Positions 9,017 to 63,635 of a DNA stretch of 64,000 nt are shown piece after piece; position 1 is the first letter of the stretch; the number at the start of each line of letters is the position of its first letter. The translations under genes were made by a program, and so were the position numbers. The notes below the pieces were generated by a model. That model saw nothing but the letters and a program-made list of their open reading frames with translations. It was not told the origin of the DNA and did not search any database. Source of the DNA: Spirochaetae bacterium HGW-Spirochaetae-1 (GTDB taxonomy: Bacteria > Spirochaetota > UBA4802 > UBA5550); contig PGXY01000002.1 in the NCBI GenBank assembly GCA_002839375.1, positions 374,392-438,391 on the forward strand, read 5' to 3'.

Positions 9017-9467
9017 TTATTTCAATCAACAGACCATGATGGACATGAGCTTTCCACGGTGGGCGGTTCTGGTCTGCGGTTAGTATCGTAGTATCCGTCA
9101 TGGCAGGGTATACATGTACCAGGCAGGTCTCACAAGAACATGTTGAATGATCAGAAGTCGGTAATACCAGACACTTGAAGAGACTTGCAGAATGTCTTAT
9201 TATTCGGACGCCATAGAGTTTTATGCCGGCCAACAACCCGGCAATCACACCCGTAGCCCCGATGCCTACGGGACAGGCTGTGCTGCCGCACACCGGGCAG
9301 ACGCTGTTCAGCGCCAGAGCTCCTGCGAAGATTGACCACCATCCTGCTAAACGGAGTATGCCTGAAGTGATGATCTTTTTACCGGTTGACTGTACCGAAG
9401 AAACATCTGTTTCCGAGCCGGTATCTGGCGCGGAAACAGATGTTGTGTCGAAATGAACTTGTTTCAT
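8997..9467 (-). CDS. Small cysteine-motif membrane protein (hypothetical)
   Basis: A 156-aa frame starting 27 nt after the CoA-disulfide reductase stop, with GGAGT 7 nt before ATG 9467. Residues about 40-90 form two hydrophobic segments around CPVCGSTACPVG, a redox- or metal-like cysteine pattern. The portion after residue 95 has poor composition for a membrane protein and overlaps the end of the convergent YeaQ-like gene by 20 nt. A frameshift near 9230 that would end the protein at 9151 is possible. I infer a function linked to the thiol oxidoreductase next door. Confidence 0.5.
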   Translation of the reverse strand: MKQVHFDTTSVSAPDTGSETDVSSVQSTGKKIITSGILRLAGWWSIFAGALALNSVCPVCGSTACPVGIGATGVIAGLLAGIKLYGVRIIRHSASLFKCLVLPTSDHSTCSCETCLVHVYPAMTDTTILTADQNRPPWKAHVHHGLLIEIIISLSD

Positions 9468-29770: not shown

Positions 29771-29897
29771 CGTGTTTTAAGACCCACCGAAATTACCCGC
29801 GAAAAGCAAGTGTCAGAGAGACTGTAAGAAAAAACACTTGAATCTTTGTTCCTGTCATCCTATATTGTCTTCAGTTCTTATATGGAGGCTTTCGGGC

Positions 29898-31064
29898 ATG
29901 GCAGATAAACCATTCTCTATATTCAAACGAGGCAAATACTATTACGTCCAGTTCAAGATGCCTGACGGGACTTTCGGCACCGCCAAGAGTTCCCGGCAAA
30001 CTACCATCGGCAGGGCCGAAAAATGGGCCGTTGAATACCTGCAGGCTGGACACGTAGCACAGAAAGGCAGCACTACGTTTGAATCGTTTACAAAGAACTT
30101 CTTCTCCTGGGATGAAGAATGGGCCAAAAATAAGAGGCTTGCGGGGAAGCGTACGTCAGAACGCGACTGTCTGGAAAAGAACAGTTTTCTCGAAGCTCAC
30201 ATCGTGCCGCACCTTGGCTCTATGCGATTGCAGCAACTCGACAAAAAAACGATCATGGATTTTCGGAATAAGCTGTTTTACGATCTCGGCTTTTCCGGCT
30301 CAACAGTAAACAAGGCTCTCGGCATGATCCGGTCAATTCTGGAGGCCGCAGAGGATAGGCGGTTGATTCAGTTTGTGCCAAAAATTGAAAGAGTGGCACA
30401 GCGGGCGGAAAAAGAGAAGGGTATCCTCACGATTGAAGAGGCGCGCAAAGTCCTGACGGCTCAATGGGAAGATCGCCGGGCGCACATTCTCAGCCTGGCA
30501 GCGGCATCCACCGGTATGAGGCTCGGCGAACTGCTCGGGCTGCGGATTAAGAACTTTCACGGGGCATACATCGAAATTGCTCAGTCGTGGAATGAACATC
30601 TCAATCGCCTGAACGACAGCACGAAGACGGGCAGGGCGCGGAACGTAGTGATCCCAGGAGCGGTTCGGGAGGGACTGCAAGAGCTTGTCGACGTCAATCC
30701 ATGGATCGCAGCCCGTGGCGAGGAGGCGTTCATTTTCTTCTCCCCGGATCATGCTTGGCGACCGGCGCACGGTGATTACCTGGTACGATGTTTTTACCGG
30801 GCCATGGAACAAGTCGGGATCAGCGAGGAGGCGAGACAGGCCCGGAACATCACGTTTCACAGTTGGCGGTATTTCCTCAATTCTCTGCTCATCAACAGTA
30901 AGATACCCCTGCAAAAAGTGCAGTCGATCACCGGCCACTTAACCGACGAAATGAGCCAGCATTATTACGCGCTCTCAATCGGAGAAATGGAGGACGTGCG
31001 ACAGATACAAGAAGGGATATTTTCGATAGACAAAAAAAGCGAAGGGGATATAAAAATTAATTGA
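29898..31064 (+). CDS. Phage tyrosine recombinase (integrase)
   Basis: A 388-aa integrase. An N-terminal AP2-like arm-binding domain (FKRGKYYYVQFKMPDG), a SAM-like core-binding domain and the catalytic domain are visible. The active-site residues are Arg in STGMRLGELLGL, the lysine region TKTGRARNVV, HSWR (H-x-x-R), GHLTDE (His) and HYYAL (Tyr). The frame opens at 29838, but GGAGG at 29884 places the start at ATG 29898. It sits directly behind tRNA-Arg, as expected for the attL-proximal integrase. Confidence 0.95.
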   Translation: MADKPFSIFKRGKYYYVQFKMPDGTFGTAKSSRQTTIGRAEKWAVEYLQAGHVAQKGSTTFESFTKNFFSWDEEWAKNKRLAGKRTSERDCLEKNSFLEAHIVPHLGSMRLQQLDKKTIMDFRNKLFYDLGFSGSTVNKALGMIRSILEAAEDRRLIQFVPKIERVAQRAEKEKGILTIEEARKVLTAQWEDRRAHILSLAAASTGMRLGELLGLRIKNFHGAYIEIAQSWNEHLNRLNDSTKTGRARNVVIPGAVREGLQELVDVNPWIAARGEEAFIFFSPDHAWRPAHGDYLVRCFYRAMEQVGISEEARQARNITFHSWRYFLNSLLINSKIPLQKVQSITGHLTDEMSQHYYALSIGEMEDVRQIQEGIFSIDKKSEGDIKIN

Positions 31065-56183: not shown

Positions 56184-56524
56184 GTCCCGAACCCCGCTTT
56201 CTCCAACGGTATTCCTCCGGGCCCGGTCGCCTCTGTCATTTCTCCAGTCTGTTCCCGCCTCTCCTCTCTTGCAATAACGTCCCCGCTGTCACTCCTCAGT
56301 CTTGCCTCCAGCGATTTCACCCGCCTGTCTTTCAGCCTCAACTGTGTATCATAGAACATGATGATCTGCACCAGCTCCGCCGTTGTCCGCTGTCCAAAAT
56401 CGTACACGAACCGCCCGTCATCGTCAATATCATCCGGGGGCACGCATAAAAATTGATAATCAATTCGCTTAATCATTTTTCGTCTTCTCGTCTCTTCTTC
56501 TCGCTCGGAAATATACTTTCGCAT
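56180..56524 (-). CDS. Phage protein upstream of the small terminase
   Basis: A 114-aa protein from ATG 56524 (AAAGGA 4 nt before). It is charged and helical with FLCVPPDDIDDDGRFVYDFGQRTTAELVQIIMFYD. No family is recognised. It overlaps the small-terminase start by 4 nt. The start lies in an inverted repeat of CGCATAAC/GTTATGCG (56520-56563). Confidence 0.65.
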   Translation of the reverse strand: MRKYISEREEETRRRKMIKRIDYQFLCVPPDDIDDDGRFVYDFGQRTTAELVQIIMFYDTQLRLKDRRVKSLEARLRSDSGDVIAREERREQTGEMTEATGPGGIPLEKAGFGT

Positions 56525-56797
56525 AACGTCCTTTGTCAACAAAAAAATGTCAACTGTTATGCGATGATGTAAAAATCATCAAGGATGGGAGAGGGCCGGT
56601 TGACCATGTCGAAAAATGTGAGTCGAAGGGGCGCGGGCTCGAGTAGCACCCCACCGGGCGGTCGGAAGTTGGACAGTACCTTTTGAATTGAGGCGCGACA
56701 GCGGCAGGGAGGGACAGAAATATAACAAAAGTTGTGCGAAAAATTAAAAAACTGAGAAAAAACTGATTACAGGACTTTTCGACATAATAAAGAAGAA

Positions 56798-58086: not shown

Positions 58087-58323
58087 ATGAAAATTTTACT
58101 GGGGCTAATAGTTTTATTTACAATTTGCTCTTTCGTAAATCCATGGGAACACAAATTGATTGATATTATTGACATAAATGGATTGAGGATTGAAGTCGAT
58201 ATAAAACCACAGATGTTAATAGGGTTTACACGAGAGTGGCATTCTTTGTGTATAGGAATGCCATTTTGCGACCTTTGGATACAGTGGGGAAAAGACATTA
58301 TTAAAGGTGGCCCTAGAGGTTAG
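58087..58323 (+). CDS. Small membrane or exported phage protein
   Basis: A 78-aa protein from ATG 58087 (GAGGAGGAG upstream). Residues 3-19 (ILLGLIVLFTICSFVNP) are a membrane helix or signal. The rest is soluble with two Cys. A hairpin (TGGCATTC/GAATGCCA) lies inside the gene. Its stop abuts the first cassette boundary at 58324. Confidence 0.6.
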   Translation: MKILLGLIVLFTICSFVNPWEHKLIDIIDINGLRIEVDIKPQMLIGFTREWHSLCIGMPFCDLWIQWGKDIIKGGPRG

Positions 58324-58324
58324 G

Positions 58325-58622
58325 TTAAGCGGCGTTGGCCTTATTGGGGGACGTTATGGGAATGAATAAAAGCATACAATATGCTATATTTTGTGAGAAT
58401 TGGGGACCAGGAATATGTCCTCAAGGGTTTGAAGATTTTGCAGATATTAAAAGCCCAACTCAATATTTCAAAAGAAAAGGATGGGTGCGTACCGGTGGTG
58501 ATAAGTGGTATTGTCCCGATTGTGCAAAGAGAATGGGAATCAAGTGGGGCCAATGACCGCTTAACAGTCAATTTTAACCGCAGTCGGTATTTCCGATTGA
58601 GCGCAGCGCCGGTTAAAATGTG
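58325..58622 (+). mobile_element. Integron-cassette-like unit A
   Basis: The left edge is GTTAAGC (58324-58330, GTTRRRY form). The right side carries the inverse core GCTTAAC (58559-58565), as expected when the two ends derive from one circular cassette: GTTAAGCGG at the left is the exact complement of CCGCTTAAC at the right. The unit holds one 66-aa gene. Confidence 0.55.
58356..58556 (+). CDS. Cassette-borne small zinc-ribbon-like protein
   Basis: A 66-aa protein, start ATG 58356 with GGGGGA 4 nt before (ATG 58362 also possible). Cys pairs in CENWGPGIC and CPDC suggest a four-cysteine zinc site. Aromatic residues are frequent. The gene fills the cassette-like unit and has no promoter of its own that I can see. 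Confidence 0.6.
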   Translation: MGMNKSIQYAIFCENWGPGICPQGFEDFADIKSPTQYFKRKGWVRTGGDKWYCPDCAKRMGIKWGQ

Positions 58623-58628
58623 TTGGGC
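58559..58628 (+). other. attC-like recombination site
   Basis: A 70-bp imperfect palindrome bounded by GCTTAAC (RYYYAAC) and GTTGGGC (GTTRRRY). ATTTTAACCG (58571) pairs perfectly with CGGTTAAAAT (58610), and an inner hairpin GCAGTCGG/CCGATTG follows. Lengths, cores and symmetry all fit integron attC sites. Confidence 0.6.
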
Positions 58629-58657
58629 GATTTGCTCAATATTAGCAGGGGGAAATT

Positions 58658-58864
58658 GTGGAAACTTTTAAATTTAGAACACCAAAGACAAATAAAATCA
58701 TAACCATTAAAAAAACATGCAATCTTTGTAAAAACAGATGGATGTGTAAATCAAAAGAAACTGCATGCAAACTATTTGATGCCGAGGATGGTTACTGCGC
58801 GAGATCACTACCGAATCACGATTGTAAATATATAAATTATGGATGTAGTGATTGCACACTATAA
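58658..58864 (+). CDS. Cassette-borne cysteine-rich small protein
   Basis: A 68-aa protein starting at GTG 58658 with CAGGGGGA upstream. Eight Cys are arranged as CNLCKNRWMC, C, C, C, and CSDC, suggesting one or two metal sites. It is flanked by TGTTGGGCGA (58621) and its exact inverse TCGCCCAACA (58877), marking the second cassette-like unit. Confidence 0.6.
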   Translation: METFKFRTPKTNKIITIKKTCNLCKNRWMCKSKETACKLFDAEDGYCARSLPNHDCKYINYGCSDCTL

Positions 58865-58878
58865 AGATAGGGCATTTC

Positions 58879-58910
58879 GCCCAACAGTACGCATCCGCAT
58901 TGCGTATTAA
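58879..58910 (+). other. Partial attC-like site ending the second unit
   Basis: GCCCAAC (58879-58885) is followed by TACGCA/TGCGTA arms, but no GTTRRRY core follows. The 3' half of the site seems lost or mutated. Confidence 0.4.
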
Positions 58911-58940
58911 CTCATAAAATAACCAGGAGGGCAGGATAAT

Positions 58941-59144
58941 ATGAGCGACCTTAATGTCCTTTCCGTCATCGAAAAATATCTCACTGATAACAAATTCGAC
59001 GGCCTATATGTCCCTGGGGAATGTGCGTGCCGCGTGGGCGATCTCATGCCGTGTCAGGGGTTCTGTGGTGATTGCCTGCCTGGATATCTTGGACCGGGAA
59101 ACGAGGAATGTGGCTGGAGCATAGGGGCGGAAAAAACGGAGTAG
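58941..59144 (+). CDS. Small cysteine-rich phage early protein
   Basis: A 67-aa protein with AGGAGGG upstream. An N-terminal helix (LNVLSVIEKYLTDN) is followed by GECACRVGDLMPCQGFCGDCLPGY, seven clustered Cys/Gly turns that could hold zinc. It is found beside other early phage genes; the role is unknown. Confidence 0.65.
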   Translation: MSDLNVLSVIEKYLTDNKFDGLYVPGECACRVGDLMPCQGFCGDCLPGYLGPGNEECGWSIGAEKTE

Positions 59145-59408: not shown

Positions 59409-59689
59409 GGGAGGGGGCCTTGAATCTTGATTGCATCATGTCAGAGTGCTTCTGTAGTTGGGTGATTGAGCGGAATATCCGTGGCGAGAAAGTATATTTG
59501 TGTAACGCTGGATACGATAGAGATGATCGCGGTCCGGATACATGCAAGTCGTATTCCAGGAGATATGAGTGTGCCGGCGGGTTGGTTTTCAGGGAAGGGG
59601 AATACACAAAAGAATATTGTCAGGAGTGCACAGATTTATGTGCCTCTACAGCCTGCCCGGTAGCTGAGAAGAGGAGAAGCAAGAAGTGA
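59405..59689 (+). CDS. Small cysteine-rich phage protein
   Basis: A 94-aa frame starting GTG 59405, overlapping the previous stop. ATG 59438 is the alternative. It contains ten Cys, including CFCSW, CKSYS, CAGG and CQECTDLCASTAC. It overlaps the methyltransferase start by 4 nt. A zinc-finger-like fold is likely; the role is unknown. Confidence 0.6.
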   Translation: MREGALNLDCIMSECFCSWVIERNIRGEKVYLCNAGYDRDDRGPDTCKSYSRRYECAGGLVFREGEYTKEYCQECTDLCASTACPVAEKRRSKK

Positions 59690-61119
59690 ATCATCAATTT
59701 AATAATAACTATGTGACATTCGGCGATCTGTTCGCTGGAGGTGGAGGCGTCACCACAGGAGCATTATCTGTTCCAGGTATCCGCGTATTATGGGCGTTGA
59801 ACCATGATGAGATATCAATCAAGACACACGAAAAGAATCATCCAGAGACAATACATTATCAGGCTGATATCAGACAGCAGAATGAGAAAGAACTGGACCC
59901 GGTAGATATTTTATGGGCGAGTCTGGAATGCACAAATTATTCCAATGCCAAGGGTGGACAACCCAGAGATGCCGACAGTCGCACGCTGGCCTGGGAATTG
60001 CCCCGCTATATCAAGCATTGCCGCCCGTCGGTCATCATCATTGAAAATGTGCGGGAGTTCCTCGCCTGGGGCCCACTCAATGAAAAAGGAAAACCGGTGA
60101 GCAGACAAAAGGGCGAGGATTTTTCCCGATGGATAAAGGCTGTCAAGGAGTTGGGATATATAAATGTGGACTGGAGAATATTGAATGCTGCAGACTTCGG
60201 GTGTCATACCAGGCGGGAACGGTTATTTATTATATTCACGCGGGATGTACCGATCAACTGGAAAGAGGCGACTCATCATCCAGAGGGGAATAATCTTTTC
60301 GGTCTTCAGAAATGGCGGCCGGTGAAAGAGTGCATCGATCTGGATAACCATGGCCGATCTATATTCGGGAGAAAGAAGCCCTTGTCAGAAAATACACTGC
60401 GACGGATAGCCGGGGGAATAAAAAGGTTTTATCCCGATATGTGCTTTTTGATGAAATACTATAATTCATCATGCAACCCTGAATCTCAGAATCAAAGCGT
60501 CAATGAGCCCTGCCATTCGGTGACAACAAAAGACCGGTTTGCCTTGGTGAATATTGAGAAGAAACATTTTATGATGAAGTATTATAGCGGAGGGGATCAT
60601 GTTTTTGAAGTTAATGGACCATTGCATACTATAACCACTATAGATCATCATGCTTTAATCTCTGTGGAGAAGAAACAATTTATAACAGATCATATCTGGG
60701 GTGGAAGGACTCAGGGAACCTGTGAACCACTCAAAACGCAGATGACCAGACAAACTAAACAGCTCATTACATGTGAGAAATTCCAGTTTATCTCTGCATA
60801 TTTTAACAGCTCGGGGCGGCCTGAGACACAGAATCAGAGTCTGGATAAACCACTCAATACAATCATGACAGCGAATAAATACGCACTGGTATCCGGCTTT
60901 GATTTTGATATAAAAATGAGATTTCTCACGCCTGATGAATTGGCAAAGATTACCGGGTTTCCGGAGGGATATTTTGATCATGCTGGTCTGAATATATCCA
61001 AAAAATACCAGGTCAAAATGATAGGCAATGCGGTACCAGTAAATCTTGCTGCGGCAGTAATTGAACCAATGGCAATTATTCTCGAAAATATAAAGTTTCC
61101 CATGGTAGCAAACATTTAA
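59686..61119 (+). CDS. Phage C5 cytosine DNA methyltransferase
   Basis: A 477-aa protein. Motif I is TFGDLFAGGGG. Motif IV has SLECTNYSNAKGG with catalytic Cys82, in which the usual PC is replaced by EC as in some phage enzymes. Motif VI is IIENV (120-122), motif VIII RRERLF, and the C-terminal motifs IX/X include ITGFPEGY and QVKMIGNAVPVNLA. Between VIII and IX lie four tandem modules of about 37 residues (254-407) that probably read DNA. No cognate endonuclease is adjacent, so host-mimicking protection is likely. Confidence 0.9.
   Translation: MNHQFNNNYVTFGDLFAGGGGVTTGALSVPGIRVLWALNHDEISIKTHEKNHPETIHYQADIRQQNEKELDPVDILWASLECTNYSNAKGGQPRDADSRTLAWELPRYIKHCRPSVIIIENVREFLAWGPLNEKGKPVSRQKGEDFSRWIKAVKELGYINVDWRILNAADFGCHTRRERLFIIFTRDVPINWKEATHHPEGNNLFGLQKWRPVKECIDLDNHGRSIFGRKKPLSENTLRRIAGGIKRFYPDMCFLMKYYNSSCNPESQNQSVNEPCHSVTTKDRFALVNIEKKHFMMKYYSGGDHVFEVNGPLHTITTIDHHALISVEKKQFITDHIWGGRTQGTCEPLKTQMTRQTKQLITCEKFQFISAYFNSSGRPETQNQSLDKPLNTIMTANKYALVSGFDFDIKMRFLTPDELAKITGFPEGYFDHAGLNISKKYQVKMIGNAVPVNLAAAVIEPMAIILENIKFPMVANI
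60445..60906 (+). repeat. Four tandem recognition-like modules in the methyltransferase
   Basis: Each unit of about 34-41 residues follows F-[ML]-x-x-Y-Y/F ... P-L-x-T-[IV]-T-T-x-[DN]-x-x-A-L-[IV]-[ST]. The third unit is the most diverged. Confidence 0.7.
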
Positions 61120-63635
61120 TGACACCCGACATTTTTAACGAAGCGCGCCGCCGCGTATCCCGCTCACTCATTGAGCAGTATTTCGCCGCGCCTGGTGCGC
61201 ACTGGGACGGGTCCGAGTATTGGACGCTAAATCCCACACGCCGCGACAAGAAAGTCGGGTCGTTTCATATATCCGCCGAAGGGCAGTATTTCGACCACGC
61301 TACTAAAGACGGAGGAGACATAATTGACCTATTGGTTGCCATCCACGGAGTCACAAAAAAAGAGGCGGCTGAAAAGATCATCAGCGATACCGGCGGCACT
61401 ACACCCTCCCAGGAGAAGCGGCAAAAGATCGAGCGGGAACAGCAGGCGGACCGTAAGGGCGTCAAAAAAGAAAAGCCACCGGCACAAATACCGATCCCGG
61501 AGGCCGAACGCGAGAGCCTTGTCCGTACCCTGGAAAACGACTTTTTCAGGGAGAAGTACGGGGAATTCACCGCCGGATATACATACAAGACTATGGCGGG
61601 CGACTGGGCATTTGTGGGGGCGCGTTTCGAGCGGAAACAGGTTGATGCAGAAGGCCGGGAATACATCGAAAAAAACGTGGTGCCGTTCTATTTCACAACA
61701 ACGGGAAAATGGAAAAACGCTCTGCCTCCGCTACCTGGGAAATTGCCGTTGTACAAGATAGACGAGTTCGGGGCGATGAAGAAAAAAACCGGGGCGCGCT
61801 TCCTCATCGTCGAGGGCGAGAAATGCGCACAGGTGATGGTCCCCGGCTGGATCGTCGTCTCGTGGGTCGGCGGCACGAATAAGGTTCATCTATCCGACTT
61901 TTCACCCCTGGCTGATTACCCGGTAGCGATATGGCCGGATCATGACACACAAATAGACAAAGAGACGGGCCTGCCTCTCCCTGACGTAGAGCAGCCAGGA
62001 ATAAAGGCCGCACTCTCAATCCGGGAAGCTCTGCCACACGCTCAGATTATGGATGTGCGGGACCGCCCGGGGGACGGCTGGGACATCGCCGACGCTGCCG
62101 AGAGCATGTCGCCGGAGGAGTTGGCCGCGTATGTAGAGACCTGCCCGCGACTATTCGAGGAAATGCCCTGGGAGCCATACGACGCATTCCGGCAGTTCGT
62201 CGCGGATCGCTACGAGGACCGAAACCTCGAACACATAGACGGTCTGTTTTGGGAGTACAAGGCGGACGCGCATTGCTGGCGCGAGGTGATGCAGACTAAT
62301 ATTAAGACAGATATTCTGTGGTGGATGGAACAGAAAAAGATTGTGAAATTCCTCCAGAACAACGCCAAGGCGGTGCATACATTCCTGAAAAATACCGCGT
62401 CTCACCTCGAATTTTATTCCACCGGTTATTCGGGGAGAAATCCGTTCAAGGAATCGGCCATCATGCCATATATCCATTTTATGAACGGGGCTGTTGAGAT
62501 CAAAAAAACCGGTGTGAAATTCCATGAACGTGCCCAGGACAATGAAGATTTTTTCCGGCGATTATACCCGGTGCATTGTCTTGATTTTGATTTTCATCCC
62601 GAGGCCTACGAAGGTGCCCCACTGTCGGAAACGGCACCGGCATTCCATTTTTATCTGCGGGAACTCATCCCGCCCGAGGACCGGAGGCGGTCGGACTACG
62701 AGGAGCAATTGCAACTCACCATTGATTTTTTCAGCCAGATAATTGCTTACGCTATCAACCCGATAAAAAAAGAGCCGTACTTTTTCGCATTGTATGGAGC
62801 ACAGAGGGCCGGGAAATCGTTTTTTATTGATATCCTCGAACAGCTCATAGGGCAGCAGTTTTTCGTGAAGCGACCGACCTCGGATATGATCGGCAATCGC
62901 TTTGCAACGTCTGATTTGTGGGGTGCAAAAGTGTTCGTGGACGATGACGTGGAGAGCAACCTGAAGCTGCCAGACGCGTTTATAAAAAACAACTCAGGGA
63001 ATAAAGGGATCACGGTCGAGCGCAAGCACATGACGCCGGTGCATGGAGTAAAAATATCCGTGGCGATGTTTTTTCTATCCAATCACAATTTTAAAATATC
63101 TGGCGGTGCTGAAGGACTTGCCCGGCGATTTGTATATGTGCCATTTGATCGGGAAATCAAAAACCCGGACGTGTATCTGCTGGACAAAATTTGCGGGAAA
63201 GAGCCGAAAGACTTTGAGAGCGGCGACGCGGTGGGGCAAACCTTCGATGAGCGCCCGGCTATTATCGGCATGGCCCTGAGAGGATGGGAACTTTTCAGGA
63301 AAAATAATTATCGATTTGTAATGCCGGACTGGATCAAGCGAGAGCGTGACAAGTGGCTCATGGAGTCGTCGAGCGTGTCGCAGTGGTTTTATGAGGAATT
63401 CCTCGATAGCTACAAAAGCGACCGGATCAGCAGAAAGGAATTTTATGATCAATATAAATCATGGTGTGACGAAGAAGGCCGCAAGGCCATGGGGAAAATC
63501 AAGTTTTTTGAGGAAGCCAGGCGGACACGACGAATCAAGGAGATTAAGGGGAATATGGACCGGTACGTGGAGATATTGTCAGACATTGACGATACTCCGA
63601 GCGACGAAAAATTGCAGGAAGAAATACCGTTTTAA
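61119..63635 (+). CDS. Phage primase-helicase (DUF5906/SF3-type)
   Basis: An 838-aa protein. A short N-terminal domain (FDHATKDGGDIIDLLVA) resembles primase zinc-free DnaG-like starts. Residues about 225-275 (FLIVEGEKCAQVM ... WPDHD) look Toprim-like. The helicase domain has LYGAQRAGKSFF (Walker A, about 560), KVFVDDDV (Walker B) and FFLSNHN with RRF. It starts within the methyltransferase stop (TAATG). It should initiate phage DNA replication. Confidence 0.9.
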   Translation: MTPDIFNEARRRVSRSLIEQYFAAPGAHWDGSEYWTLNPTRRDKKVGSFHISAEGQYFDHATKDGGDIIDLLVAIHGVTKKEAAEKIISDTGGTTPSQEKRQKIEREQQADRKGVKKEKPPAQIPIPEAERESLVRTLENDFFREKYGEFTAGYTYKTMAGDWAFVGARFERKQVDAEGREYIEKNVVPFYFTTTGKWKNALPPLPGKLPLYKIDEFGAMKKKTGARFLIVEGEKCAQVMVPGWIVVSWVGGTNKVHLSDFSPLADYPVAIWPDHDTQIDKETGLPLPDVEQPGIKAALSIREALPHAQIMDVRDRPGDGWDIADAAESMSPEELAAYVETCPRLFEEMPWEPYDAFRQFVADRYEDRNLEHIDGLFWEYKADAHCWREVMQTNIKTDILWWMEQKKIVKFLQNNAKAVHTFLKNTASHLEFYSTGYSGRNPFKESAIMPYIHFMNGAVEIKKTGVKFHERAQDNEDFFRRLYPVHCLDFDFHPEAYEGAPLSETAPAFHFYLRELIPPEDRRRSDYEEQLQLTIDFFSQIIAYAINPIKKEPYFFALYGAQRAGKSFFIDILEQLIGQQFFVKRPTSDMIGNRFATSDLWGAKVFVDDDVESNLKLPDAFIKNNSGNKGITVERKHMTPVHGVKISVAMFFLSNHNFKISGGAEGLARRFVYVPFDREIKNPDVYLLDKICGKEPKDFESGDAVGQTFDERPAIIGMALRGWELFRKNNYRFVMPDWIKRERDKWLMESSSVSQWFYEEFLDSYKSDRISRKEFYDQYKSWCDEEGRKAMGKIKFFEEARRTRRIKEIKGNMDRYVEILSDIDDTPSDEKLQEEIPF

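Follow-up and report, generated by a model that had tools for sequence, protein, structure and literature searches.

Phage-borne clusters of attC sites (CALINs), including that of Polaribacter phage P12002L, were reported by Qi et al. 2023 (PMC9892861). As at the locus reported here, the passages of that study drawn on describe attC cassettes in integrase-less phage genomes, associated with small genes and with DNA methyltransferases. Those CALINs, however, were defined by canonical models, with scores of at least 20 bits and at least two sites, while here one site is present, sub-threshold by a proxy model; it appears to match a class with a recombinase free of the IntI-specific insert. The divergent attC directions in P12002L were remarked by the same authors; neither the cassette-end rule described below nor a general antisense polarity is found in these passages.

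Chromosomal integrons of Treponema (2013 study, PMC3607928) share with this locus the phylum, the cassette arrays and a similar attC length (63–68 bp), but differ by a canonical IntI with full insert, by short cassette ends, and by another attC sequence and fold. As for IntI integrases, two reports of 2016 and 2020 (PMC4792948, PMC7790495) link the I2-helix insert to single-stranded attC recombination: this insert is missing in the recombinase of the present host, while its core is homologous to IntI4 on both insert flanks. Both Ghaly et al. and IntegronFinder rely on an IntI-specific profile to define IntI (PMC8352920, PMC9024848), so that insert-free arrays are probably not called complete integrons. 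In practice, integrons are recognized by the IntI-specific insert along with attC models trained on IntI integrons; arrays of an insert-free class are therefore easily missed, and no description of them was found in the open-access literature. Phage-borne attCs are thus already known; the recombinase class, the end rule and the polarity appear to be new, as far as that literature goes.

A probable cassette pair in a prophage early operon

The window, i.e. the whole 64-kb stretch that was analysed (G000:C2:374392-438391), is part of a 5.2-Mb host genome. Judged by the recombinase beside its array, the closest named relatives of this genome are Spirochaetes MAGs, among them RBG_16_49_21 and the Zod_Metabat bins. 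A temperate-phage genome starts beside a tRNA-Arg (29667), with an integrase gene at 29838–31064. Baseplate, portal and terminase genes lie on its minus strand, while the early operon runs on the plus strand from about 57.7 kb and includes two small genes, a C5 methyltransferase and a primase. Beyond the window end the prophage goes on with a RadC-like gene, SSB and repressor-like genes (annotation read by eye). The features of the region are the following:

58087–58323, plus: 78-aa phage gene; its stop TAG (58321–58323) is one base short of the left cassette border
58325–58564, minus: putative cassette A body, holding the 66-aa gene antisense to the array; inverted ends 58324–58340 / 58549–58565
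58356–58556, plus: 66-aa gene, CPDC zinc-ribbon-like end, orphan; RBS GGGGGA
58559–58628, minus: putative attC-type recombination site, 70 bp; from sequence, fold and the host-family model R2
58623–58884, minus: putative cassette B body, holding the 68-aa gene antisense to the array; inverted ends 58622–58636 / 58871–58885
58658–58864, plus: 68-aa cysteine-rich gene, GTG start, orphan; RBS AGGGGG
58886–58911, no strand: small hairpin adjoining cassette B at its outer core; the fold is not significant (z -1.3)
58941–59144, plus: 67-aa cysteine-containing phage gene, first past the cassettes
59686–61119, plus: C5-cytosine DNA methyltransferase of the phage early operon; PF00145, E 2.9e-41; phrog_116
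61119–63635, plus: phage primase/helicase; phrog_1829, E 3.5e-39

The cassette architecture noticed in the initial annotation is indeed located inside the early operon, with small genes on one side and the DNA methyltransferase and primase genes on the other, and all of its motifs were found again at their positions: GTTAAGCGG (58324–58332) pairs with CCGCTTAAC (58557–58565), and TGTTGGGCGA (58621–58630) with TCGCCCAACA (58877–58886). The complementarity extends further than first described, as GTTAAGCGG-C(G)TTGGCC vs GTTAAGCGGTC(A)TTGGCC for the former pair, and GTTGGGCGATTTGC vs GTTGGGCGAAATGC for the latter. The palindrome has arms ATTTTAACCG (58571–58580) and CGGTTAAAAT (58610–58619) and measures 70 bp from core to core, within the 57–141 bp range of attCs; in the plus-strand reading its cores, GCTTAAC at 58559 and GTTGGGC at 58622, fit RYYYAAC/GTTRRRY. 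Read on the minus strand, the site features, in order, R'' GCCCAAC, spacer ACA, a stem of about 9–10 bp, CGCTGCGCTC, a small hairpin, the second stem arm, spacer TTGACT and R' GTTAAGC.

Two attC-like sites had been proposed: the one at 58559–58628 is complete, while past 58885 only a weak hairpin is present, of 6 bp (TACGCA 58888–58893 / TGCGTA 58901–58906), with no GTTRRRY core in the sequence beside it. This hairpin may be either a truncated site or a chance one. An intact attC is found at neither of the outer cassette borders, and an Rfam search around the site gave no match, either at gathering thresholds or at E 1. Elsewhere in the window, at 56521–56562, a perfect GCATAAC/GTTATGC palindrome with two TTGACA boxes overlaps the start of a small minus-strand gene ahead of the late operon; because of this overlap it was rejected as a second attC, and it is probably an operator or promoter.

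A strict search (RYYYAAC/GTTRRRY cores 50–160 nt apart, arm score of at least 10) found one site in the window, against 0.0005 per shuffled window. In 1.93 Mb of fetched real DNA, where the site itself recurs in overlapping copies, other sites were found only beside canonical IntI genes, mostly in Treponema-type arrays; outside canonical integrases, the site is unique in about 1.5 Mb. The joint statistic, combining two abutting cassettes with the attC arm, is 35, where the maximum in 2000 dinucleotide shuffles is 31; the cassette ends alone are weaker evidence (25 observed, 24 attained in 1 of 60 shuffles). Since the joint score lies above all shuffles and the real-DNA control otherwise yields only IntI-side sites, the sequence feature is real, and not due to chance.

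The two small genes start 31–35 nt past a core. The 66-aa protein shows a weak match to phrog_9007 (E 7e-4, 16 aa covered), the 68-aa protein no family match, and neither has a homologue in any of 296 genomes of the phylum. For both, the only IMG/VR match is IMGVR 3300038334_000143, the one viral contig featuring these prophage genes; it is identical over 11,645 bp and hence probably not independent, likely being from the same sample. The G+C content of the cassettes is low, but that of the adjoining phage genes is equally low, and it was dropped as a mark of foreign origin.

Precise gain or loss of cassettes at these borders, which the initial annotation had suggested looking for, is not shown by the comparisons made: prophages with a related methyltransferase (G000:C10, G014:C23) or primase (G003) are too diverged, and the sole matching viral contig is the identical one. 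Upstream of the methyltransferase in G000:C10 and G014:C23 no comparable cassettes were found; the joined flank, i.e. the hypothetical empty site, had no match in IMG/VR, nor had the locus in the collection of phage records. Neither the related prophages nor IMG/VR yielded a sibling prophage whose site is empty.

Canonical and host-family models of the site

As a proxy for the IntegronFinder model, a covariance model (R1) was trained on 18 attCs taken from canonical IntI integrons of this phylum. On the array strand, it assigns about 20–42 bits to attCs of unseen spirochaete genera. To the phage site it gives 12.8 bits on the minus strand and less than 10 on the plus strand, which places it behind a chance palindrome at 9398–9448 (13.8 bits, both strands). 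Both scores lie below 20 bits, the threshold applied to phage attCs in the portions of Qi et al. considered (PMC9892861); by this proxy, half of what the initial annotation had itself set down as speaking against its reading is observed, and a canonical attC is not supported. The site does fold (z -3.4 to -3.9), but Treponema attCs are more stable (-6.5 to -8.9), and its structure is branched, with no clear extrahelical bases. Of 247 genomes in the phylum, 26 carry a canonical IntI, two of them within the same order; in the host genome and in 19 family mates no match exceeds the cut-off. A second complete attC, required by the two-site criterion for a CALIN, was not found. Because of the sub-threshold R1 scores, the weaker, branched fold and the absence of a canonical IntI from genome and family, the phage site is classed neither as a canonical integron cassette nor as a CALIN.

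The same genome contains an array of another kind, together with its recombinase. A tyrosine recombinase is encoded at the end of host contig C5 (L011 6289–7440, minus), and cassettes follow divergently, the first at about 90–160 bp from the gene; their starts and ends are inverted repeats of at least 20 bp. The array appears to be split between contig ends, L011 7598–10703 (C5) and L207 11541–19392 (C4), and several of its cassettes carry single genes. One longer cassette, with outer ends that agree over 23 bp, encloses a 72-bp attC-like palindrome (L011 10099–10170), as though a pair of cassettes moved as a unit. The same layout of recombinase and array is found in relatives, where numerous recombinase contigs end next to the gene, as expected from repeats.

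Compared with TIGR02249, the IntI model, the host recombinase shows two matching blocks, for 188 of 265 bits, between which IntI4 residues 179–233 have no counterpart. Its best family match is NF040815 ('site-specific tyrosine recombinase/integron integrase'), of XerA-type recombinases, at 194 bits, below the 220 cut-off of the family; an Algibacter enzyme reaches 227 bits. XerA acts in chromosome dimer resolution at a single dif site, and is not known to act on cassette arrays. In Flavobacteriaceae, insert-free XerA-like recombinases head long attC-like arrays, with sites mostly of about 130 bp, where the inverse core complements the core of the previous site in 29 of 33 consecutive pairs. 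Such chromosomal arrays were observed in L087 (8439–18104), L098, L099, L108, L109 and L114.

An alignment by MAFFT of the phage site with the host sites was unusable, and covariance models were therefore chosen. The model derived from the attC sites of the host family (R2; 7 training sites, short calibration) ranks the phage site at the top of the 64-kb window, with 17.8 bits on the minus strand (next 11.6) and a marginal E-value of 0.097; true host-family sites score 21–118 bits. The spacers of the phage site (3 and 6) and the CGCTGCGCTC element past the first stem arm also agree with host-family sites. No further stretch of host-type attC was found in IMG/VR, and the phage itself has no integrase of the insert-free class.

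The cassettes of this class obey a common rule: their ends match over 9–10 bases from GTT, mismatch at position 11, and then match again. In all 44 cassettes, position 11 of the cassette start is A, as is always the case in the Flavobacteriaceae arrays; in the end copy it is mismatched in 43 of 44, and is G in 38. The ends of canonical cassettes match only over about 7–9 bases. End scores are 4–10 for canonical Treponema cassettes, 14–20 for host ones and 9–14 for flavobacterial ones; the two phage cassettes score 13 and 12. Read on the minus strand, cassette B fits the rule exactly (GTTGGGCGAAATGC / GTTGGGCGATTTGC): its start, GTTGGGCGAAATGCC, has A at position 11, with T in the other copy. 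Cassette A (GTTAAGCGG(T)CATTGG / GTTAAGCGGCGTTGG) fits it given one 1-nt indel; its start on the minus strand, GTTAAGCGG(T)CATTGGCC, has A at the aligned position 11, with G in the other copy. In the plus-strand reading the rule fits neither cassette.

Array polarity and phage-borne relatives

The plus orientation originally assigned to the cassettes is not retained: R2, R1 and the end rule, three features in all, point to an array running on the minus strand, antisense to the 66-aa and 68-aa genes. Chromosomal arrays behave otherwise. In those of Flavobacteriaceae the largest ORF is co-oriented with the array in 33 cassettes and reversed in 2, and host-family chromosomal cassettes are mostly co-oriented as well. 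L210 (5542–8080) is an exception: in this chromosomal cassette of the host family four genes, including a sigma-70 factor and a DUF3795 protein, are all antisense to the array.

The attC motif of the flavobacterial class is found in 17 IMG/VR contigs, most of which have 130-bp sites or rule-obeying ends; several also contain portal, capsid, terminase or primase genes. Relatives of the class are borne by several marine flavobacterial phages. Phage-borne cassettes were observed in L216, L217, L218, L222, L225, L227, L228 and L231 (IMG/VR) and in L232 (Polaribacter phage P12002L); in several of these phages, methyltransferase or PAPS-reductase genes adjoin the sites. P12002L features the flavobacterial motif and two rule-obeying cassettes of antisense polarity beside methyltransferase genes, along with one further cassette that lies in the late region and reads on the minus strand.

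Of 10 cassettes in flavobacterial phage contigs, 9 have a largest ORF that runs against the array; chance-like matches (L227, L230) and a composite pair (L218) were not counted. Co-oriented and reversed cassettes are thus 33:2 in chromosomes vs 1:9 in phages (Fisher p 6e-7), where the phage counts are small, come from a single motif and may be inflated by related contigs. As for the cause, one may speculate that the attC acts as a terminator, or that it is exposed as a single strand in one orientation only. Reverse polarity in phages is a simple and testable regularity.

Weighing of the explanations

The region is probably a short piece of an integron-type array of the host-family class, with a polarity opposed to the transcription of the phage early operon. 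The R2 score being modest, the assignment to this class draws on several weak-to-moderate features that agree, with no strong one among them: the fit to the end rule on the minus strand, the score itself, the spacer lengths and the CGCTGCGCTC element. Against it stand the 17.8 bits of R2, the indel needed by cassette A, the single complete attC, the antisense genes, unusual for chromosomal arrays, the lack of an integrase of this class in the phage and the failure to find an empty site. A tyrosine recombinase of the type encoded on G000:C5, related to XerA and IntI and free of the IntI-specific insert, would recombine inverted cassette ends of about 15–20 bp, cutting beside the G of GTT; a cassette with a small gene would be inserted, removed or exchanged at 58559–58628, and the two Cys-rich genes, each with its own RBS, would be expressed along with the early operon. 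The host recombinase presumably acts on this site, by a strand-exchange chemistry likewise presumed; cassettes may still be moving there, with some benefit to the phage, and the two Cys-rich proteins may be early phage proteins gained via cassettes. We infer, in this sense, a cassette route by which the phage may gain small genes.

Three other readings were weighed. Canonical cassettes in plus orientation, i.e. promoterless genes each with its attC, acquired through the IntI integrase of a related host, would explain the fit of the cores, the 70-bp length and the start codons 31–35 nt past a core, and IntI does occur in the phylum and in the same order; yet R1 gives 12.8 bits, and on the minus strand, vs 20–42 for attCs of unseen genera, the branched fold is less stable than that of Treponema sites, canonical cassettes lack extended ends, and host genome and family lack a canonical IntI: this reading is quite improbable. 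It is also unlikely that cassettes are not involved at all, and that an intergenic hairpin, be it a terminator, a processing site or an operator, is accompanied by chance inverted repeats at gene borders. Phage early regions often hold palindromes, another palindrome (56521–56562) overlaps a gene start, and the cassette ends alone were nearly equalled in 1 of 60 shuffles; but the joint statistic was unreached in 2000 shuffles, no other strict site occurs in about 1.5 Mb away from canonical integrases, and the position-11 rule and the host-family model agree on the same strand. Within the preferred reading, an array now fixed, with fossil borders and ordinary phage genes, where recombination has ceased, is a real possibility, if a less than even one. 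The outer borders, lacking intact attCs, make such a static remnant quite possible, and the indel of cassette A and the diverged inverted ends (12–13 vs 14–20 in host cassettes) fit with it, while the site at 58559–58628 retains both cores and its stem of about 9–10 bp.

What makes the phage cassette pair interesting is chiefly the class that it suggests. A second, unrecognized class of integrons may exist in a Spirochaetes family and in Flavobacteriaceae, defined by an insert-free tyrosine recombinase, long inverted ends and the fixed A mismatch at position 11, with phages of both phyla exchanging small genes via sites of reverse polarity; we hold this proposal to be about evenly balanced between true and false. 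If real, the class would bear on the evolution of cassette capture before the I2 helix, would bring Flavobacteriaceae and deep spirochaetes into the cassette economy, and would give phages of two phyla a route for trading small early genes.

A minor observation concerns the methyltransferase of the early operon. Second prophage-like regions with a related C5 methyltransferase are present in the same genome (G000:C10:284989-286494, L021; 84–92% identity) and in a relative (G014:C23, L023; 70%), and the middle repeats of the enzymes in these two regions seem to vary in number.
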